Below are positions 40,301 through 63,810 of a stretch of DNA of 64,000 nt, piece by piece. The notes below the pieces were generated by a model. That model made no database searches and had not been told where the DNA came from. It saw nothing but the letters and a program-made list of their open reading frames with translations. Position 1 is the stretch's first letter. Each line of letters starts with the position of its first letter. The DNA lies in assembly GCA_903813345.2 (NCBI GenBank), contig CAIIXF020000006.1, positions 12,406,348 to 12,470,347 on the forward strand, written 5' to 3'. Source of the stretch: Owenia fusiformis. Lineage: Eukaryota > Annelida > Polychaeta > Sabellida > Oweniidae. A program made the translations under genes and the position numbers.

Positions 40301-43300
40301 GGACACGGCGTGACGTCATGTCTTATGATTTAAAAGCCTTATTCAATTCATGGTTTAGTGAGAATTTGCTAAAGATATGATTTTTTCCACTTGTTACATT
40401 GAGGTTATTTAGGAATATGATTTTTAGGGAAAATGTGATATTGGCCGAGGAAAATATCATATTGACCGAGGGGGACACCCCGATTGTCAATATGATGTTT
40501 TCTGAGGCAGGATCCGCCAGTGAGCAGTGTATAAGTATCTTCTTTGTGTTTCCCCCGTGTCATTACAGAAGATCTTGACACCCTCAAACAGGCTGCAAAG
40601 AAAGCACTCGAAGAAATAAAAAATGAAAGAATAGCTGCCTTATTTAGTAAAATTGGTTCACAACAAGGACGCTCTGGGATGTTTGGTACGTAAAAAGGTT
40701 GTAAAAAGTTACCCTCACAAGTATCTATTTGTCTAATCATTGTGATACTATTAAAATGTTTATACAATTTTAACACAATATCAATATTTCCCTTATTTCT
40801 GTTTTAATTATCAACTATTCATCTGCTAAAAACTAGTGACAATATTCTCTTGCCAGAAAGCAATATACTGTGCCTAGGTACGTGTGAATGTAAATTATGA
40901 ATGGAGGATTTAGATATGTAATTCAAATTTGATTAAAAAAGACTGCTTAAAACCCAAGTCACATTTGTCGTACGGCGACCGTACGTCGACCGCAGGTCAA
41001 TTAAATCATTCAGTGAATTTCAGTGAAGCGTAGAAAAACTACGGTCGCCTTGTGGCCTCTGCTCAGTGTATCCAGTTTCTTAACGGTCGCAGGGCAGCCG
41101 TAGAAATTATAACTCTACTTGGAGTTATAATAATTGTTCATTTCTGCGGTATCCGTAGCAATCGCCAGACTATTGCAGCCGTAGAAATTATATCTCTAAT
41201 TGGAGTTATAATATTTGTTCATTTCTGTGGTATTCGTAGAAATCGCCAGACTATTGCCAGACTGCAGAACGGTTCAACGGTTGCTACATATTGGGCTTAC
41301 GTTGATTTGCGTCTGCCGTACTGTTTTGATGGGTTAATTATGTACCTTGGAAACAGTTTTTAGGCCAGGTTTTACTGCCATATCTTTGATGTGATCACAA
41401 CGCAATGGGTATACTGTTTGATGTAAGGTCACTGATAACATGTAGCAACATATATTACAAAAGATTAAACAATTGGTCAATCAACACTTTTTTATTCTTC
41501 GATATTATCCTAGCACAATAAATAACATTTATAAATTGTACTGATATAAATAAAATACAAATAAACATTAACGTTTATCAACAGTAATTTCAAAATTCGC
41601 TGTGCGGCTGCCGTAGGAAATGTGACTGCAAAAGTACATGTATCCAACTGCAGAAATTCTACGGCGAGCGTAGAAATGTTACTGACCACAGAAATGATAG
41701 ACCGTACGGTCGCTGTAGGAAATGTGACTGGGGTATTAGATCCTTAATTTGTCCACCACGAGTTAGTGTACGATCTTATATCACAAAATGGCCACTTAGT
41801 TTTAGATTTTAGATCCAGAGTACTGATATGTTTTAGCAATGGGAGGTGGAAAAGAGTTTGTAGAAGCAGTCACGTTACCGTACTTGGAGGTGTTAGAAAT
41901 CATAAAAGAAATTAAAAAAAGGTAAATATTTTATTTTGTTTTGAAAATTTGTTTCACTCACTTTTAATCCAGATTCTGTTATATGTACGTTACCAGAATT
42001 ACAGGGTGTACGTCTGTCCCAATGTCCATCGTCCAGTTTCCGAATACCACACTCCGATGTGATGTTTTAATCGATGTAAAAAAAACTCCTCACACCCTTG
42101 TTTATTTTAATGCGAAATAACAAGCTATAACATTGGTTAACACGCCAGGAATTAACATCTAATTCGATTCCAAGAAGATTTTGAATCCACCATCATGTTT
42201 TCGTCATTTGACCAATCAGAGACGATGTTCATCTCTATATTACAGGGTACGTTCCAAATTAAGCGTTACAGTTGAACGCGTGGGGTACGGTACAACACGA
42301 GGGTTATAAAATGTGAGCAAATATATGTTTTCATCGTTTCAGAAAGGTGTGGTCTAGTTTTTAGATATTTTACATGTAAATGTCTGTAACAACATCCTGG
42401 ACAGTGATCATGAACTTGACGGTGAATTTCACAGCGATGTTTCTGAAACGATGAAAACATCAGTTTGCTAAGATTACATCACCCTCGTGTTGTACCGTAC
42501 ACTGCTCGTTCGACTGTCACGCTTAACTAGCAATATTTTCAATATTATACCAACATTCGCTCACAACATAATTTTATTTTATGAAAAAGTACTGAGATAT
42601 CAAATATAGAAGTTAGAAATTTAAAAATGACCAAATTCATTGGAAATTAAATCAAGGAGGTGTAGGGGGCATGTTATTCAAGTTTTGTCACATAACCCAA
42701 AAACGATTATCAGAACAGTTGAAATTAAGAAAAGAGGAATGATATACAGAAGAATGATGCGAGCAAAAATATATATTCTATTGTCCCTTTACCCCATTTA
42801 ATTATTCAAACAGGTATGCACTCACCAAACCTAGACTAATCGAATGGTTGAGACACATGGGAAGACTCCTGGCGTTTAACAATACCCAAATCACGGATGG
42901 TTTACCCCACGTGACCACCCCCGAGTGTCTCGAGTCATTCAATCCGAACATTGAATGCAATCTTTTTGCAAAGTTCAGAACATTTGACGGAAGCTGTAAC
43001 AACGCCAGGAATCCACTCTGGGGACGGGCCAAAACACCTTTTATAAGATTTCTGACGAATGCCTATGCCGATGGTAGGTTTATTTTCTAAAGCCAAGGAA
43101 GATAATTTATATTTCAAATGTCACCTAATGTATCACTATCAGTTATTTATAAGCAGTGTTGAACAGCTCTATACATGGATTGATTTGTAACACAGGTAAA
43201 AAGGAGCCCAGGGTCGCCAGAGACCGTACACCTCTTCCAAGCGCACGGCTTGTGAGCAGAACCATCCACCAAGAAGCGAACAAGCCCAGTGCTGTACAAT

Positions 43301-46300: not shown

Positions 46301-49300
46301 ATGAAATTGCCATTAACAATAATTTAGACTGTTCATACTGCCTAAAAATATTCATTAAAATTGTCATATCACTCATAACATTAGCCGTCATTTTGATCTC
46401 CCACACACATGATTTCAAAATGTTATTTTTTATGAACTTTTCTAGTTTGGAAGTTATAAATAAAATACCATTCAAAGTAATGTGACCCCCTTTTGTATGA
46501 AGTTTAGAGAGGCATGGTTAAAAGTAATACATATCATATATGCGGTTATGACTTCAGATAACAACAGTGGCAGAATGCTGATGTCTACCAACCCATTACA
46601 TCACGACCTTAAGCCATTGCTTCCTCCCTTTGATTCTAAAGATTGCGTAAAACCGAACGTAAATGATAGCGTCAAATGCATGAGAACAGGTAAGAGTATG
46701 TTCATACAGGTGCATCAAAATTGTGGTAGCAGGTTGGCCTGGGAAGGCATCGTTAGAATTTATCCAATCCATTGTATAGAAAATAGCGTGCCTTCGGAAG
46801 GAAGGAGAGTATGACATATTCCACAGTGAGTATCGTGTATTCACTGTACTCACCTCTGGGATATGTCATATACCGCAGGTGAGTATGGCATTTTCACCCG
46901 TATCACAAATACCGACAACCATGAATGAATGCCATATTCTGCGTAACAGATAGATGACTATATGTTTGTGTCGTATGATACTTCTTCTGTAAACAGAGTA
47001 TTAGTTTAATTTGTTTAATTCCCTGAACTTTAAACAGTCTTACAAACTTATCTCCATTTAGGAGATGGACGGGCGAACGAGTGGATTGGATTAACTTCAT
47101 TCCACGTTATATTTGCAAGGCAACACAACAGAATCGCAGATGAGCTGGCGAGGATCAATCCTGACTGGTCAAATGAAAGCAACAGGTTGTTTTTGGTACG
47201 TTATGTATAAATCCCAACATTATGCCCGGTCACATTTGCTGCGATTCATCGGCCGGCGCCCGGCTGATTTCTGATCAAAATACTCAATTGGCCGGGCGCC
47301 GTAGTGAAAATCGGAGCAAATGTGACCAAGGCATAAGTTGCAACCATGTGTCCCAACTGAATACCACTTTAAGGGCTGCTATTGTTTGAATCTACTGGGC
47401 TATTTGCTGAGTTTGTTAAAATCGTAAATATTAAAAGGCCTTGTTACATGATCATAAAGGTTTTTACCGGTTACTGAACTTTTTCGGGGAGTGTACATTA
47501 TTGCAACAAATAGTGTAAACTAATGTGGTTCGAATTTTGTTTCCGATCGATTATCCTTCGTGATATGGTTGCTCTGTTATGAAGAATGTCAAACGTACGC
47601 TCTCTAGAAGTACGAACAAACGACTGATAACCAATTTGCGGTTCCCTGGATAATGCACCCACCCATTCCATATCTTGAAATCTTGAACATACCCGAATGA
47701 GAAAAAGGTTGCAATCAGGTCAATACACAGGGTGTTCGTAAAGTATCTTTGCAAAGTATGTGAAAGTGTAACTTTATAGACACCATGTAATTCCAGATAC
47801 TTTCGCACTTTGAGCGGTTTAGTGTGTTAGAATACCAATGACTTTACTTTTAGGAGGCAAGGCGTATTTTGATAGCATTGTGGCAAAGAATTATATATGG
47901 AGAATACCTTCCTGTTGTTATGGGATCGCACTATAAAAGATACGACCTGGCTTTGTTAAAAAAGTTCAAAAAGGGGTACTTCTCAGGTGACATTGAATTT
48001 TTATAAAACTATACTACTATGAAAAAAACATATGGTCTCTAGAAAAAAAACTATAACATTGATAAGTTAGTTGTGAAGCAGCACTTCCGTCAGATTGTAA
48101 TTATGAAGCATTGGCAAATTCACATATTCATCTGCTATGATGAATAACTTAGTTTGCATGTGTCCCGTCTACTCCACCCCCTTGTTTATGGTGAGGTGAG
48201 ATGAACAAAAGTTATTTCAATTATTTTATTTCAAGAATACGACGAATGGACGAATGCTCAAGCATCCAATGTCTTCCAAGGTGCAGCCTTTAGATTTGGT
48301 CACTCCCAAATAGATACATTCATACGGTTCATAAGTGATAACAGATTCAAGAAGTATATAGACGATCATATAACATCAGTAAGTATGGTCAGAAATAATG
48401 AACATAATATGTTATCTTGTACATGTAGTTTTTTCTTTGATTTTTTTATTCTTATTTTTAGGCAAATCGCTTAGAGTATTTTGAAGTTTGAAGGGGCGAT
48501 TTTCTAGAGGTATCTAGGTTTCACATAAAATACATTATTCAAGAACCTTACAAATCCAAAGATAGCAGCGTAGTAAATTGTGTAGTTGCCTCAAAGAGAG
48601 TATGAATCAAGGGCTCTTCTGTACTGACTGAATCAATTATAAATTGGATTTTTATCGTACCTAACAAAAGGTACGATATTGTAGACAGCTTGACGGGCGG
48701 CGGGCGGGCGGGCGGGCGGGCGGGCGGGCGGCGTCTCACTTTTCAGCTTGTCTACAGGTTTCCAGCCAAACCATTTAAGGGATTCATCTGAAATTTTCAT
48801 GGATGTTTCTACATATCAACGTCAAGAACTGATTAGTTTTTGGGCATTCTGGGTAAATCTTAAGGTGGCCATTTTGGATTTTCCCTCCTAAAATCTTCAC
48901 TTTCAAGACTTGTCTACAGGTTTCCAGCCAAACCGTTTGAGGGATTCATCTGAAATTTTCAGGGATGTTTCTACATATCAACGTCAAGAACTGATTAGTT
49001 TTTGGGCATTCTTGGTAAATCTTAAGGTGGCCATTTTGGATTTTCCCTCCTAAAATCTTCACTTTCAAGACTTGTCTACAGGTTTCCAGCCAAACCATTT
49101 GAGGGATTCATCTGAAATTTTCAGGGATGTTTCTACATATCAACGTCAAGAACTGATTAGTTTTTAGGGCATGCTGGGTAAATCTTAAGGTGGCCATTTT
49201 GGATTTTCCCTCCTAAAATCTTCACTTTCAAGACTTGTCTACAGGTTTCCAGCCAAACCGTTTGAGGGATTCATCTGAAATTTTCAGGGATGTTTCTACA

Positions 49301-52300
49301 TATCAACGTCAAGAACTGATTAGTTTTTGGGCATTCTTGGTAAATCTTAAGGTGGCCATTTTGGATTTTCCCTCCTAAAATCTTCACTTTCAAGACTTGT
49401 CTACAGGTTTCCAGCCAAACCATTTGAGGGATTCATCTGAAATTTTCAGGGATGTTTCTACATATCAACGTCAAGAACTGATTAGTTTTTAGGGCATGCT
49501 GGGTAAATCTTAAGGTGGCCATTTTGGATTTTCCCTCCTAAAATCTTCACTTTCAAGACTTGTCTACAGGTTTCCAGCCAAACCATTTGAGGGATTCATC
49601 TGAAATTTTCAGGTATGTTTCTACATATCAACGTCAAGAACTGGTTAGTTTTTGGGCATTCTAGGTAAATCTTAAGGTGGCCATTTTGGATTTTCTGTCC
49701 TAAAATTTTCACTTTCAAGACTTGTCTACAGATTTTCAGCCAAACCATTTGAGGGATTCATCTGAAATTTTCAGGGATGTTTCTACATATCAACGTCAAG
49801 TACTGATTGGTTTTTGGGCATTCTGGGTAAATTTTAAGGTGGCCATTTTGGATTTTCACTTTTAAGACTTTTCTTCACTTTTAAGACTTGTCTATAGGTT
49901 TCCAGCCAAACCGTTCAAATTTTTACATATGTTACACAGTGATAAGTTCTAGAGCTGATTAACTCTTCTGCGGCCATCTTGCTTTCTTGGTCAACAAGAC
50001 CACAATGCTGTGTTTTAGGTACGATATTGTTCACGTCTGTACCTTGTTCCTAGGAGTTTTGCTCATAAAAGAACCCCTGATTAACTCCGCTTTAATCAAC
50101 TCCAAGGGATTGCAAAAAATGGCCTGTACTGTTTCGAAGTTTTGAAAACAGGGGTTCTGCAACAGGACATAAAACCCAATTACTATAGAAACTCATTTAA
50201 CACTAATATGTCACCATGGCGATCTTTTAGGCACGTACATGTTAAAATGATTTGTATAACTACATGTACCTAGACTTCGACTCTCCTCAACTGGTGAACT
50301 TAGTTCTGATGATTCTACCTTGTTACTTTTCCAACAGCATCAGTTTAGACCATCGGCAATGTATGGGAAGGGCGATAAAGGAGGGGTAGATACAATCGTT
50401 AGAGGACACGTACATCTACCTTCCCAAAACACAGATGCCTATTTCACCGAACAAATGTCTTGTCACATGTTTACAAAAGACCCACCCTTTGGCGAGGGAA
50501 CTGATCTACCAGCACTTAATATACAAAGAGGAAGAGAGCATGGACTACCAGGTAAAACATACACTCCCCTCCAAAAGTTTGGAAATTATTAACACGTTAG
50601 CTATTCCATGGGATTTCCCGTTACTAGATTTGTAGAAGGCAGTGTATATATAGCACATGCATTGGTATTTTGGTTGAAATGATCTCATAAATTGAAGCTG
50701 ATTATAATTGCCTGTTGTATCAGTTCATATTGATAAAATCATAGTTGACCCAATTTAAAAGGAAATATAATATGTAAATTAAAGTAGAACAAGTGTCTTA
50801 ACATCTGGTACATTGTCGTTGTTTGTTTTAGGGTACAATAAATGGAGAGAATATTGCAATCTCCCAAAAATAAAAAACTGGAAAAAGAAACCAGCTGAGA
50901 TACCAGAAGCTATCTGGGGAAAACTACCTTCTATTTACACGTATGTATATAGTTTTGTTTGAACTTCACCAGGGACAGAAACGCGTTGGGTTTTTGTTCG
51001 TTCGAAAATCGGGTAGGTACGGTTAGGTGAATATTTTGTAGTGTTTCCTTACCTACATTATTAAAAACGCTCATCGTGTTCCCAGTACATCGGGAAAGCA
51101 TCCAGTTATTATAAATCGACAGCAATATCTAGTTCTTTTAGAATGTGGGGTTAACATTATTTTGATTTTAAACAAGATTCTGTGGTCAATCCCATTGAGT
51201 TTAAGGTTTAGAGAGGTCAACCCCACAGAGTTAGAGTTTAAGGTGTCAATTTGTAACAACTGCATGTTTCCCCGATGTATATGGGAACGCAATGAACACA
51301 TTCGCAGGTGAAGAAGTACTAGAAGACGTTCCAAGACGACGAAATGTAATTACCTACCTAATCTTTTTGAATAAAATGCAGTTTTGGTAATCCATTTCCT
51401 TTTGTACTCGAAAAAATACTCTAAGCGTACACCACTTGACATAACCTGATTAAAACACAGAGAAAGATTTATGGAGTTATGGCACTCCCGTTAGGAACAT
51501 GCATATGCATCTTCTTCCATGCCACTATATCTTTCCAGGCATGTCGATGACATAGATATATTTACCGGTGGTATATCTGAAGTCCTTGTGCCATATGGGG
51601 CAGTTGGTCCAACATTTGCTTGTTTACTCGGCAAACAATTCGAGAACTTGAGGAAAGGAGATCGTTATTGGCATGAGAATATGGGCCCGGGCATGTTTTC
51701 TCAAGGTATTTCAAAAACTGATTTAATCACCGGTACCATTTATCTGCTGTTATGAGTATGTCTGTTGTGCGTCCCTTAAGTACCCCAACTAACCAACTAA
51801 CCGTGAACCTTATTTCTCTCAAAATGAGAGAGTTTGACACTTAGTCAAGCTTCAAATAAACAAGCCTCTATTACATTCTAGACCAATTAACTGCCCTTGA
51901 CAAAGGATCCTCTCTGGCGAGAATTATGTGTGAAACCAGCGATGACATTCAATTCATGCAGCCAAAGGCTCTCCTTCTACCGTATAGCGAGATCCCAAAA
52001 GATTTGAGGTACGTCGTGTCGTATGCATGAACGTCGTACCATGTAAAATAAGAGGTCATACTTTTGTTTTAAAGTCGTTCATCTTCATACCTTGCATTTC
52101 ATAAATGCACAATCCAGTTAGTCATACCATGTTTATTCGTCTATTTCTCTATGATTTTCGATATCAGCGGGTTTTGTTACTTCTTTCCCATTGTGAAGAT
52201 TATGAAAATTGTTAAAACTCTGCATAATCCTGATTTGTGAGACTAACAATTATGAGGGATTAAACAAAAATATTCAGGTAGGAAATCTTAAAGTAATGTA

Positions 52301-56964: not shown

Positions 56965-59900
56965 ATGACTAAAGATTACATATCCGAAGAAAATGACAAA
57001 CAACCACTTCTTAACAAGTACAATATCAATATCGGCACAGGCAATGAGGATCCAAACACCACAAACAAAACAGAAACGGTATATGGCAGGCGGTGGTATA
57101 TTTTATTGTTGTTTTCGGTCGTGTCGGCTACACAAGCAGCAGTATGGAACACATTTGGACCTGTAGCAGATTCTGCTAAGATTGTATTTCAATGGGAAGA
57201 TTCTGTATTGGCATTGTTGCCTGCACTTGGTAATATAGCTTATATTCTCACTGTGGCGTTTGGAGCATGGATCATGGACGTAAAAGGTAAGTTTCTTTAC
57301 TTCATCCCAGGTTTTATCATTCTTTGAATTTATGCACATCAGGCCGGGGGGGGGGGGGTCGCAGGGTCCCCCCCCCCTGGCCAAAGATTCTTTCAAAATC
57401 ATGCAGTTTTCACCATTTTGGGCACTTCTCAAGTGATTTTAGCCATATATTTGGGCTAAAATTGTCAAATGTGAACCCCTCCTGGAAATTTTTGAAAACT
57501 GAAAAATCCTTGGCAAATCCTGCCTACGGGCCTGCACATACAGCTGTAAACCATGGCGACACTTTAGTTGTTTAAACGTAATTAAACAACAGAGTAGTAT
57601 TCCGGAATATGAAGAATCCATAGCACAATATAGCGCTGTGACATGAAAGGAGGTCCCTATGTTTTGGTTCTTTTAAAATACCGTTTGCTGAAAAACTTCG
57701 GGCTTTTTGGTCGAAATATGTCTCTCATTACAAGTGGTAAAAAAAGTTAAAATTTTCATTCGAATTTTTACACATTTTATAAGACCTAAGACGTTAAGGT
57801 CCGTGTGTACTTTGATGAAATTTCATGACCATGTGCTATTTTCAGATAAACATAACTCATTCCACACATCATCTATTCTATATCTTTCATTTCTGCACAA
57901 AAAATGCATTAGTGTACTTTAGACTATAATTGGGGTTTGATAATTCTTCAGAATGTTTGAATAACTACATATAATCAGTAGTTTACTTTTCAAAATTGCA
58001 AAAAATCCAAAGTGCACTCTGGCCTTAAACTAAGCATATTTCCAATAAAATAATTATAACCTCAATGTAATTTTCAGTGGTTAATTAGTGAAATTACATA
58101 AATGTGCTTATTAATTTTTTTGGCTATCATCAAATTTTTGGGGAAAATCTAAACAATTTTTTTAAAGCTTCGTGAATTCGACCAGGTCTTTCTTTGTAGT
58201 TGTTTTATAAACAGCTGAGCAATATCTAACTCGGGCAAAATCAGTTTAGCCGTATAGCCACATTCAGTCGAGGATGCGCAATAAGACCCCATTTATATAG
58301 TTGACCCCTGACGATGACACTCCATTTCTATAAACACATTAAGACTCATTTTTTCCAAAATATACCATAATTGTAGCATATGTCATTCTTATATGAAAAT
58401 AATTATCTTCAATGTCTGATGCATGCTCAACAGGCTAAAAAGTCTCCTCTTAAAAGCAAGTCACAAAGTCACAAAATAAAGTCAAAATGATGAAGGAATT
58501 GTTGAGTTTGTAGAAATCAATGCTTCGTATATTTCCTAGGAATGCGAGTGGCAATGGTTGGTGCAACAGGACTGTTATTTCTTGGGACTCTCTTCAGATG
58601 TTTTACAACTGACCCTATTGCTGCAACATGGTAACGTATATGCTTATTGGGCTTTTATGCAACTGATTTTAATTGAAGCTTTTCAAAAGTCTTTCGTCCT
58701 CTACTTCCAAGGAAGTTATAACATACTAGTTTGCAGTTGGAGCGGTAAAATGGGAACAACTGAAACCTTGTGAATCAAGATGGAGGGCTATAACATGGTT
58801 TCATTATTAAGGTATGTCAAGTTGACCAATTCATTTGGAACTTTAAACGTTTGAAGATGGACACAACAACATATCTAAATTGCAGCTGTTGATGCTAACG
58901 GGGAAATATATTAAATGATAATTAAGTTCTATATAGGAAGAGGAAAGGGTGTAATGTTTCACTTTTTGAAGGATAGAGATAACGTCTTCAAACATTGGCC
59001 AATTTATATCCTTAATTTGTGATGGCCATGATGACAAGATGATAATCGTAATGATTTTTACAGAGAAAAATAGACGAACTTCCCCGTCATGACAATTATT
59101 AATCAGTACAATGTTTCCTTATTACAAGTTATATAATGTTCGTATTTATTCCACAGTTAGCATGATATTCATAGGAAAACATGTCAAAATAAAAAAGGTG
59201 TTTTTGTAATCAGTGGTAAAATATGATATTTTGACAAATTTTCACTTAACCATAGCATGTTTAAGCCATGACACACAGCGCCATATGCTATGAATTATGG
59301 ATTTTTGCTACTTCAGACTCAAAACGAGGTTAAGCGTCAACATCGCCCGATCGTTTGGAAAATTCGAATTAAATCACTTAATTTCCGACGATTCTGATGA
59401 TGACTTTAACAATGGAATAAAAAGAACATCCTATGATTTACTCGTGATATAATTTTAATCCACTCATGGATATTGATATCTGCACTCTCTCGCTACGCTC
59501 GTATCCATTCGTGGATAAAAATCATATCACTCATTAATCATAGGATATCTTCTATTTATCACACGTGGGCAAATTAGATAAATCTCTATGCTCAATATGT
59601 AAGCTCGTCTAGCTGAAATACACTACCCTACCTCGATCGAGCATGCGCGAGATTTTTTATTTTCGTCCAGGGCGCTTTTGAGTAAATCGACTGCAACTTA
59701 GAAAGCTTAGAACGTGTTGCTTAAGGAATTAGTCAATATTGTTATTCACTCAATTGGCCAATGGTAAATTAGTGTAGTATAACTTATTCAAAACGATATG
59801 TCTGTACAAAGAAACTAATATAAATAATTTCGTTTTATAAATATCAAATATTTGATATGCCTCAATACAAGGGCACAAAATTTAAAGTTCGATCAAAACA

Positions 59901-62900
59901 GGCACAGCTAATGAAAATTGTTCAATAGTACAGGGCGCGGGAAAGTAAGCTGATATAAACAGAACAATTTGCTGGTTTTATACCAAAACCAATTCTAAGA
60001 TAGTCAGTAGTATACTAGCTGCGAGTACAATAGTGCAATGGTATATTTGTGAACTGCTTAATGTAACTGATGTAATCTTTATTTTCAGACAAATACAATA
60101 ACAGCGTACATATTATGCCAATCATTTTTTTTTTCTAATACGCTTGATATCCAGTGGTATATGGAGCTGTATTTGACATTCTAAACCAGAATATAATGAA
60201 TGATAGAAGGAATGATACGTTTCATTGGATTACATACGAATGCTTACAGGGGGGGGGCGTCATTAGAATATTTCAAATGCTATATGGAAATGCTTGCCAA
60301 AAACTGCGAAAACTGTGTGTACATGGTATAGGTCACTGTAACAATGAATTCAAATTAAAAAAATGAGCACATGGGTATTGCTGGCGTTTTGAATCCTGAC
60401 TAGACAAGTGCTACATATAATTAGTGTATTTGTAGAAAGTGGATTCATAATATTATAACTATGCTAAATCCATACTTTTAACTCTGAAAAAAACACCAGG
60501 TTGATGTAGTCTTACATGACATATTGAATGTCAGATGTTTTTGGATTATATTTGCTCCAGTGATTTTTCATTCAATAATGAAACGCTCATCACCAGACAC
60601 CGCAAAACAAAAGCCTTTGTGATAACACCCTTGGTATACGCAGCTAACGAAAATTGACCGGTACGGGTCAAAAGCTGGACCGGTACGGGTTAACGGTTTT
60701 ATTTGAATTTAAAACAGCCATAACTTGCTCAATATTGACTTCCTCGTGTCTAATTTGAAATATATGATGCCTCCAGATGCTTTTAAGTACCCCAATTTTT
60801 TACAGATTTTTAAACGGACCAAAACTCTCTAAATGCGCATTTATGCTCTTTTCTCTCGAGAACGACTGTCTCATTTTCACGATAACTTTTATTTAGTACT
60901 TCTAACATATAAGATCTATTTTTCTCCATCAAGGTATGATGTAAATGACATGCTATTTACATCTTGTGAGTTTCAATGACGCGCGTTTGATTTTATAAAA
61001 AATGCCAAACTTTGTGACAAAGAATATCCTCAGTGCTTGCAGCGAGAAGACGGACCGGTTCTGGGCAATCTGCTTGCAACGAGAAGACGGACCGGTTCGG
61101 GGCAATAGCTGATGAAATTCTTTGTCACAAAGTTTGGCATTTTTTATAAAATCAAACGCGCGTCATTGAAATGCGCATTTAGAGAGTTTTGGTCCGTTTA
61201 AAAATCTGTAAAAATTGGGGTACTTAAAAGCATCGGGAGGCATCATATATTTCAAATTAGACACGAGGAAATTAATATTGAGCAAGTTATGGCTATTTTA
61301 AATTCAAATAAAACAGTTAACCCGTACCGGTCCAGCTTTCGACCCGTACCGGTCAATTTTCGTTAGCTGCGTATACCAAGGGTGGATAAGAGGAAAAATG
61401 TTTTGCAATATGTTCTGCTTAACGGCAAAGTAAAGATACATTTCTGGCACTTTTTATTCATCTTAAGATTTTAGAAAAACAATCAATTTACAAAAAAAAA
61501 ACATTTAAATAACATACTAGAAAATGTATCTGCATATAACACAATGGTCCCTTATCTTAGGCTGCATAAGAAATGTCTTCCTGTCTTCATTGTGCTTAGG
61601 TTGGTCCTGATTGGCAGTGTCTTCAATGGAATAGCCGGAACTGTGCCATTCGGGGGACCGCCTTTGCTCTCAGCTCTGTGGTTCCCTGCCAACCAAAGGG
61701 CCAGTGCTACAGCTATATCCACCGTCATGAACTACCTCGGCATGGCCTTCTCCTTCATTGTAGGTCAGTCAGATCATTGCATGCACAGAGAAATCGGGAA
61801 GACACAAACTACGCTTTATCGTTCCATATTAGTTGTCATATAGTTATTTTCCACCTCCATCTAATTTTATCCCGTCCCTCTTCGAATTATCCTGGATGGG
61901 TAGCTCCTTTATTTATGCACATCAGAATCAGACATAGGTAATTATCCACCTAGTCTTTTCAATCATTTAATGCCAAGATATATATCTTCAGGCTTGCTAT
62001 CGTTAACAGCATTTTGAGCGGCATCTCTGCTTGTACTGGTTCCGCCGCACCACCTCTAATATCTTCCCTGTGGTTCCCAACCTCACAACGCGCGACAGCA
62101 ACAGCTATTGCAACCATATTTGCATACCTTGGAGTAGCATTTTCATTCATAATAGGTACGAAAAATCCAAAATTCAACTTCACCTGCCTAATTTTTCTTT
62201 TCTGATTATTCTCTGTTCAACGTATGTCGAAATGAAGATGTTGCCTGTACATGTAGTTGTGATTATTTACGTATTCCAAATGTTTTATTTTCATTTAGGG
62301 CCTCAACTTGTAACCCAACCACCAAAAAATTGCAACTCCACATTTATAAACAAGTAAGTACTATACCTAAAACAATCTTAGTTTTAAAACGTGCTTACTT
62401 TTACTGTGACAATATTACATTTTAATAATGTCTAAGGGGCAATCTTTATCGTTTTGCAGTACGTTGGTGAGAAATAATTCCTATTGCCGGATGAACGGGA
62501 CTAGCATTATATGGGGTAAGTCAAGTGGTGTTTACTTATAATCATGGGCTATTATCCAATATATTTCAATTAGTGAGACTTTGAATGAAAAAGATAAAAA
62601 ATAAATTGACGTGACCTCACACCGATATTCAAGCATGTTCTAGTTCCCCTTTGGAATGCCATTCCCATTCCTCAGTCAAATATGTCATGTAGCTTCGCAT
62701 TATCGATGTATTACAAATGAATGTATATTCTTTGATTGTAAAGACTTGACATTTCTTTGTAGAAGAGTCATTTCTAATAAAAGAACGGAGTGAGATGATG
62801 CGCCTGATGTATGTAGGTGAGAATATCACTGAAAATTCCCAAAATTCCATCAATCACTGTTCCACAGCTGGATGACTCTAACTGCAGTTAGGTTCATTCA

Positions 62901-63810
62901 AGATGGTTACAGAAATTCTTTCGTATTCGATAAACCTCCGATAAAAATGAATGCTTAAACAACCGCGATATTGGAGAATTTTAAAGAAATGGATTCACTT
63001 AGAATAACTCTAACTGAAGTTGATGATGACGTAATTATGTAGATCAACACTTAGAGTCATTCTTATTAAGTGAAGCCGTTTTCTTTAAAATTCTGTGGAA
63101 CAGTGATCAATGATATTGAAACTTGAACATCAGTTACACCATAACATTTCACAATATTAATTATAATCATCGCATGTATTGCTTCAACATCTGACGTTTC
63201 AGTTCGAGAGAAATCCCATTTCCCACAAAACCATATGGGATCTATATATCGAAGGTCACAATTTGTTTTTAGAGTGTGGATTTTCTTGCTTCTTGTTCCT
63301 TCTTGTGATTATATATTTCCCATCAAAGCCCCCGAGCCCACCTAGTGCTAGTGCTGGCGTAGAAAGACTGGACTTTAAAGATGGTCTTCTACATTTGGTC
63401 AGGTATGACGATCTCACAAATCAAGGTGCAAACAAACATAAGAAAATAAATATTTAAAATACCATATACCTATAAACCAAACAATAAAATCAGGTTTGTA
63501 TTAATATATTGTACATGGAGGCCATCACATGTACAACAACTTCAGCAAAAGGTGATTTCAAAGCTCCAATTAAATTTCAAATAATTAGTATCCAGAATTG
63601 AATGAACACTGTCCGATTGGAACTGACAAATGGTATTTATAACGTTAAATGCCAAGTACTGTTAAATTGCTGTCATATTAAAAACATATTTTGTTTTGTA
63701 GAATGAAACAATTCTGGTTGATATTGATGGCATACGCTCTTCCGGTAGGCGTGTTCGCGGTATGGGGAAGCGTTCTTGATATTAATCTGAATCCAATCGG
63801 GGTTGGACAG
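56965..63810 (+). CDS. SLC49A4 (DIRC2)-like MFS transporter, 3' end outside the window
   Basis: This is a multi-pass major-facilitator protein; the vertebrate relative is a lysosomal membrane transporter. Exons: 56965-57286, 58540-58630, 61600-61763 or 61992-62155 (alternatives), 62299-62353, 62460-62515, 62763-62816, 63273-63402, 63702-63810, then beyond the window. All junctions agree in phase. The N-terminus has a DKQPLL dileucine motif (residues 11-16), like the lysosomal sorting signal of human DIRC2. Then follow GRRWYILLLFSVVS (TM1), VWNTFGPVADSA, WFPANQRASATAI (the DERATATAI-type loop), IYFPSKPPSPPS (the DIRC2 YFPxRPPxPPS segment) and YALPVGVFAVWGSVLDI (next TM). The DIRC2/SLC49A4 subgroup fits better than FLVCR because of WNTxGP and PxxPPS. 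The exon at 63273 was chosen because only that acceptor gives the required phase. Confidence 0.82.
57335..57400. repeat. G-tract / C-tract hairpin
   Basis: ggccgggggg and ccccccctggcc are inverted around tcgcagggt. It lies in the first intron of the SLC49A4-like gene. Confidence 0.6.
59425..59556. repeat. Foldback element, about 50-bp arms
   Basis: catcctatgattnactcgtgatat and its complement near 59525-59551 enclose inner arms tccactcatgga and tccattcgtgga. It is in the long SLC49A4-like intron 58631-61599. Confidence 0.65.
60626..61384. repeat. Long foldback element, 759 bp, arms over 200 bp
   Basis: Ends cacccttggtatacgcagct and agctgcgtataccaagggtg are perfect inverted copies. The arms continue through gacccgtaccggt, aatataatatgatgcctcc-type and caaagtttggcatttttta segments. 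The left arm has about 118 bp (near 60847-60968) missing from the right arm. The centre holds two tandem copies of a 36-bp unit, gcttgcagcgagaagacgg. No protein is encoded. Confidence 0.85.
61600..61763 (+). CDS. Mutually exclusive exon A of the SLC49A4-like transporter
   Basis: 164 nt, entered in phase 2 and left in phase 1. It encodes LVLIGSVFNGIAGTVPFG, LLSALWFPANQRASATAI and the next membrane segment MNYLGMAFSFIVG. The acceptor is ttgtgcttag and the donor g/gtcagt. It covers one TM helix, the cytoplasmic loop with ALWFPANQRA, and the following helix. It joins to 58630 upstream and 62299 downstream. Confidence 0.78.
61992..62155 (+). CDS. Mutually exclusive exon B of the SLC49A4-like transporter
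   Basis: 164 nt, exactly the length and phases of exon A. It encodes LAIVNSILSGISACTGSA, LISSLWFPTSQRATATAI and FAYLGVAFSFIIG. The acceptor is tatcttcag and the donor g/gtacg. The intron between A and B is 228 bp. Including both A and B shifts the frame and hits a TGA eight codons into exon B, so only one can be used. The helix-loop-helix it replaces would change the pore region while keeping the SLWFPxxQRA loop. Confidence 0.75.
62847..63114. repeat. MITE-like element with 20-bp inverted ends
   Basis: atcaatcactgttccacag and ctgtggaacagtgatcaatgat bound the element; inner arms gaattttaaagaaa and tttctttaaaattc continue the stem. It lies in the SLC49A4-like intron 62817-63272. Confidence 0.7.

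Follow-up and report, generated by a model that had tools for sequence, protein, structure and literature searches.

Mutually exclusive exons are already known in solute carriers. In the cation-chloride cotransporter NKCC2 (SLC12A1), exon 4 exists in three mutually exclusive versions that encode a membrane helix and a loop and change ion affinity. Competing RNA structures, with docking and selector sites, occur in some mutually exclusive clusters only, and RNA docking is known from clusters of the Dscam type. ZIP14 (SLC39A14) carries mutually exclusive exons 4A and 4B, and cadmium affinity is eightfold higher with 4B (PMC10761908). The mitochondrial phosphate carrier SLC25A3 has a mutually exclusive exon pair whose use depends on tissue, and large arthropod clusters such as Dscam hold more than two tandem homologous exons from which one is chosen (PMC5740500). 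Tandem exon substitution is also frequent in ion channels and arises repeatedly (PMC9741552).

In a window of 64,000 nucleotides from the annelid Owenia fusiformis, the whole stretch of DNA analysed here, we describe a gene that we judge from its sequence, with a probability of roughly 0.75, to be an SLC49A4-like transporter with two mutually exclusive cassettes for transmembrane helices TM4-TM5, a paralogue on contig C1 having five. The locus resembles ZIP14 as a solute carrier gene with a tandem pair of exons, where the choice alters transport in the one and would do so in the other; ZIP14, however, has another transporter fold and family and only two copies, and no common origin is suggested. 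SLC25A3 differs as a mitochondrial carrier outside the major facilitators, also with two exons. The nearest functional analogue is NKCC2, although it is a cation-chloride cotransporter and, to our knowledge, unrelated to the window gene in sequence. Dscam has far more copies, and these encode extracellular Ig parts. What is unusual here is the five-copy array and the recurrence in two paralogues at one and the same exon. The preliminary description of this DNA was aware of no such exon pair in the SLC49A4 family, and we likewise found no paper combining slc49 with mutually exclusive exons in a search of open-access papers. DIRC2 appears 0 times in the excerpts of two surveys of mutually exclusive exons (PMC5740500 and PMC9741552), as do the words 'splice' and 'isoform' in those of a paper on DIRC2 itself (PMC9719028).

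The gene model of the window gene is complete, with 12 exon positions, eight within the window and four beyond its end. The features are as follows.

56965..57286, + strand: exon E1 (gene model), with the start codon, the cytosolic N-terminus and the TM1-TM2 region; donor GTAAGT
56995..57012, + strand: DKQPLL acidic dileucine motif (translation), at the place of human DIRC2 ERQPLL
58540..58630, + strand: exon E2 (gene model), the last common exon before the choice, ending in phase 2
60626..61384, + strand: foldback repeat element within the intron from E2 to A; its 175-nt arms are 97% complementary, and it stops about 215 nt short of exon A
61600..61763, + strand: exon 3A, 164 nt, version A of TM4-loop-TM5 and the copy with fewer changes
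61764..61991, + strand: A-B intron, 228 nt
61992..62155, + strand: exon 3B, 164 nt, TM4-loop-TM5, version B, with a longer branch and an altered cavity stretch of TM4
62299..62353, + strand: exon E4 (gene model), luminal loop, the first common exon after the choice
62460..62515, + strand: exon E5 (gene model), luminal loop
62763..62816, + strand: exon E6 (gene model)
63273..63402, + strand: exon E7 (gene model)
63702..63810, + strand: exon E8 (gene model)
past the window end: exons E9-E12 of the window gene (gene model)

Exons A and B lie at the stated positions, have equal length and phase and are 228 nt apart, as the preliminary description had it; each is preceded by AG and followed by GT. 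A whole-genome search agrees: the exon B peptide retrieves exon A with an E value of 3.9e-14, so the likeness between them is not a product of chance. The flanking junctions given earlier, at 58630 and 62299, fit the complete gene model. The shared core had been read as SLWFPxxQRA, which is true of exon B (SLWFPTSQRA) but not of exon A (ALWFPANQRA); the core common to both is [SA]LWFPxxQRA. Overall the exons are identical at 93 of 164 bases, differ at 71 of 162 codon bases and share 52% of their amino acids.

With exon A or with exon B, the full frame runs without a stop for 487 amino acids. Joining A to B produces the frameshift and early stop that had been claimed for joint use, the stop falling eight residues past the last full codon of A, and skipping both shifts the frame, with a stop after 23 residues. 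Two other introns of the same gene, of 106 and 143 nt, are shorter than the A-B intron, whose length is therefore no bar in itself to splicing A to B, and lack of room does not explain exclusion. The splice sites of both exons score within the leave-one-out range of 20 constitutive sites drawn from the window gene and its five-copy paralogue. The foldback element before exon A was considered as a splicing structure and set aside because it is a multicopy repeat, with at least 166 genome matches, many of them near-identical (the best 40 of 744 candidates were scored); it is probably incidental.

By sequence the protein has a major facilitator fold, with MFS_1 as its only Pfam match (E 3.8e-18), and all five PDB sequences matched at E values up to 0.001 are FLVCR1 or FLVCR2. 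In a tree of TM1-TM5 with nine rows, the window gene and four paralogues stand apart from FLVCR1 and three segments of contig C11 (100/100); against FLVCR1, over the same segment, the window gene scores 2e-6 and one C11 gene 6.5e-39. The tree split and these scores mark the window gene as a non-FLVCR relative within SLC49. DIRC2 (SLC49A4) is a lysosomal, H+-driven pyridoxine exporter, and its ERQPLL is a lysosomal sorting motif, changes to which have been used to bring the protein to the plasma membrane (PMC9719028). The window gene resembles DIRC2 in carrying its dileucine motif at that place, and the two are SLC49 relatives; the five-copy paralogue reads EKRPLL there. This N-terminal motif suggests SLC49A4, and beyond it the choice of SLC49A4 over SLC49A3 is presumptive. 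The earlier SLC49A4-like label thus draws support from the PDB matches, the separation from FLVCR in the tree and the motif, and the product is probably a lysosomal transporter. A predicted structure of exon 1 alone was uninformative (mean pLDDT 62.5).

Residues 202-255 of FLVCR1 align to exon 3 without gaps, and by this homology exon 3 is the TM4-loop-TM5 unit, which walls the substrate cavity. TM4 and TM5 are among the helices around choline; in FLVCR2, TM4b holds S199, R200 and S203, the loop holds N209 and TM5 holds S212, and FLVCR1 numbers equal those of FLVCR2 plus 23, as residue pairs in the same paper indicate (PMC11168923). All five of these FLVCR2 residues fall within the exon 3 stretch. 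In FLVCR1, Q214A abolishes ethanolamine transport and affects choline transport only partly (PMC11168923). Of 54 positions, 26 distinguish exon A from exon B, among them all eight aligned to FLVCR1 213-220. At the place of Q214, nine of the ten intact copies found in the genome have G and exon B has A; the absence of glutamine from all ten implies that the pocket chemistry differs from that of FLVCR. At the place of N245, exon A has N and exon B has A, and the five copies of the paralogue read N, N, G, G and G in order. That exon choice would tune the substrate path, as the preliminary description proposed, fits the homology to FLVCR1, since the exchanged stretch corresponds to one holding residues that set the use of choline and ethanolamine. 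As a separate observation, contig C11 holds three FLVCR-like segments, and by eye the glutamine at the Q214 place is kept in two of them and not in the third.

Genome searches covered 498,259,871 bases in 525 contigs, with the window protein, the exon peptides and a paralogue protein as queries; only the best candidates were scored, so distant copies of exon 3 may exist elsewhere. The paralogue P3 (C1:17837398-17858200, + strand) shares the exon layout of the window gene and carries exon 3 in five tandem copies.

C1:17838915-17839072, + strand: P3a, exon 3 copy, 158 nt
C1:17839309-17839472, + strand: P3b, exon 3 copy, 164 nt
C1:17840177-17840340, + strand: P3c, exon 3 copy, 164 nt
C1:17840703-17840869, + strand: P3d, exon 3 copy, 167 nt
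C1:17841308-17841474, + strand: P3e, exon 3 copy, 167 nt

All five lengths are a multiple of three plus two, and all five copies have AG and GT borders and share one phase. Read with the exon phases of the window gene, P3 has a full frame of 492-495 amino acids with any single copy, and the other 27 combinations in genomic order (none, or two to five copies) all stop, at residues 155-211. Four of the five copies have splice scores within the leave-one-out range of the 20 constitutive sites. In P3a the donor (1.6, range minimum 3.4) and the acceptor (-0.9, range minimum 0.6) both score under that range; this copy also lacks two residues, and on these grounds may be decaying.

Both genes therefore show the anatomy of mutually exclusive tandem exons: homologous exons stand adjacent between the same constant exons, their phase is equal at both ends, and their lengths are equal or differ by threes (164/164 in the window gene, 158/164/164/167/167 in P3). 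Joint use breaks the frame for A+B and for the 27 other P3 combinations, and frame disruption of this kind is a criterion for mutually exclusive exons in PMC5740500. We also looked for RNA docking in the P3 introns with a rough test, based on a crude dinucleotide-block shuffle and only 20 shuffles. Shuffled docks equalled the observed ones in 4 and 14 of 20 trials in one layout and in 10 and 2 of 20 in the other, the first three values showing nothing beyond the shuffles and the last being a weak signal, and no docking site common to the five introns stood out. Competing RNA structures, a suggestion of the preliminary description, drew no support from this rough test on P3.

Of these genes, the window gene and P3 have full models, and P2, P5 and P6 were read from matched exons. 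P2 (C1, about 15.94 Mb), P5 (C3, about 32.01 Mb) and P6 (C2, about 33.57 Mb) each carry exon 3 once. In P2 (C1:15939500-15949400, minus strand), exon 3 continues into E4 with no intron between them, so a choice of exon downstream would be ruled out there. A profile built from the ten intact copies and run against all six-frame open stretches in the six loci recovers these ten copies and one relic at E values of 1.4e-11 or better; the next match there, on the opposite strand, has an E value of 0.013 and is not significant. The relic lies in P4 (C1, about 8.256 Mb; C1:8250500-8260400, minus strand), a decayed copy of the whole window locus, introns included. It is a broken exon B with 82% DNA identity to the B stretch and, in contrast to the intact copies, it has indels of -3, -1 and +4 nt, a shifted frame and no GT donor. 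P4 contains nothing that matches the exon A part of the window locus and so is uninformative on whether A existed at the time of copying.

The intact copies bear the marks of age and constraint. Comparison of A with B gives a pS of 0.79 and a pN of 0.31, a ratio of 0.40, and the differences by codon position (21/13/37) depart from an even split (p 0.0018). Among P3b-e the ratio is 0.27-0.37 across the six pairs and for pairs with P3a 0.41-0.51; the 45 pairs that the ten copies form span 0.27 to 0.82, with the highest values involving P5 or P6. With synonymous sites near saturation and amino-acid change held down, the copies appear old and constrained. An open frame is by itself weak evidence, since neutral simulations often keep one: a simulated copy with 71 changes retained it in 797 of 4000 runs, and copies with 35 changes in 1675 and 1644 of 4000.

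A gene tree without exon 3 groups the window gene (P1) with its paralogues as ((P1,P2),P3), apart from (P5,P6), with both inner branches starred; the rows for P2, P5 and P6 are composites of matched exons, and some columns of P5 and P6 are missing. In the exon tree, A joins B (86/83, not starred), A+B+P2 follow at 75/88, and P3a is added at 69/84. P3a-e are not one clade in the best tree, and neither a single P3 clade (p 0.32) nor a grouping of A with P2 (p 0.14) is rejected. The exon is too short for a firm tree, and the copies may come from two separate multiplications, in the window gene and in P3, or from one old array later trimmed. Exon B has the longer branch (0.60 against 0.15 for A) and departs where the nine other copies agree, for example at G206 and G214 in FLVCR1 numbering. 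By this comparison A is the ancestral-like version and B the more changed.

These differences bear on the explanations that compete with a choice between two functional exons. One is that a single exon, most likely A, is used, and that the other is an old duplicate giving poison or negligible transcripts. The long branch of B and its changes at positions kept in all other copies would be expected of such a remnant, and the weak splice sites of P3a indicate that copies can fade. B itself, however, retains its frame, its exact length and splice sites in the constitutive range; its pN/pS is well under 1 while synonymous sites are near saturation, and the P4 relic, whose DNA is still 82% identical, has already lost donor and frame. 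We regard this explanation as improbable. A further view is that the exons are alternative and not strictly exclusive, joint use or omission being a regulated off switch and protein diversity secondary. The early stop from any number of copies but one would serve such a switch, and the 228-nt intron is long enough for splicing A to B; a plain switch, though, needs one poison exon, and not two or five copies held under amino-acid constraint, which leaves this view somewhat less credible still than the first. That the copies are remnants of a tandem duplication of the whole gene, or an assembly artefact, gains a little from the history of the family, which has duplicated, and from the decayed whole-locus copy of the window gene on C1. 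Against this, none of the other matched exons recurs between the copies or around them, each occurring once in the window gene and once in P3; the direct repeats of 65-67 nt in the P3 array belong to the exons, while its introns show short pairs only; and A and B are too different for an assembly error. On these three grounds we reject both forms, which we consider very improbable.

Mutually exclusive use of the cassettes is thus the reading that we prefer, and the design had been proposed in the preliminary description; its anatomical support is strong, with equal length and phase, a frame guard, old age under constraint and a five-copy array in a paralogue, all features read from DNA. Each mature mRNA would retain one cassette. 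Regulated splicing would remove the others, with the frame guard as a safety net, and transcripts with none or several cassettes would be lost through early stops by nonsense-mediated decay or avoided by the regulated splicing. The choice would swap part of the cavity wall and the inner gate and leave unchanged the sorting motif at the N-terminus and the remaining ten helices. Because the cassette is TM4-loop-TM5 and the rest does not change, the isoforms should reach the same membrane and diverge in substrate preference, affinity or rate.

Since every version alters the same pair of membrane helices, a single gene could yield transporters that differ in their substrate path, and because more than one gene holds several cassettes, two genes could encode seven transporter versions. 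That the TM4-TM5 exon is in fact an exchangeable selectivity cassette, giving by splicing seven lysosomal transporters with different pockets, is a tentative proposal to which we give somewhat less than an even chance. Were it true, a single gene would act as a small transporter family. The physiological substrates of SLC49 transporters are still being worked out, and the cassettes offer ready-made, naturally occurring swaps for identifying the residues that determine substrate choice in this family.

Elsewhere in the window, open stretches matching animal haem peroxidase (PF03098) lie at 42758-43087, 47034-47207 and 50260-50589, and the three are probably exons of one gene. Between two of these matches is a tandem array at 48736-49915, with a period of 162 nt (also read as 325 nt) and about seven copies.
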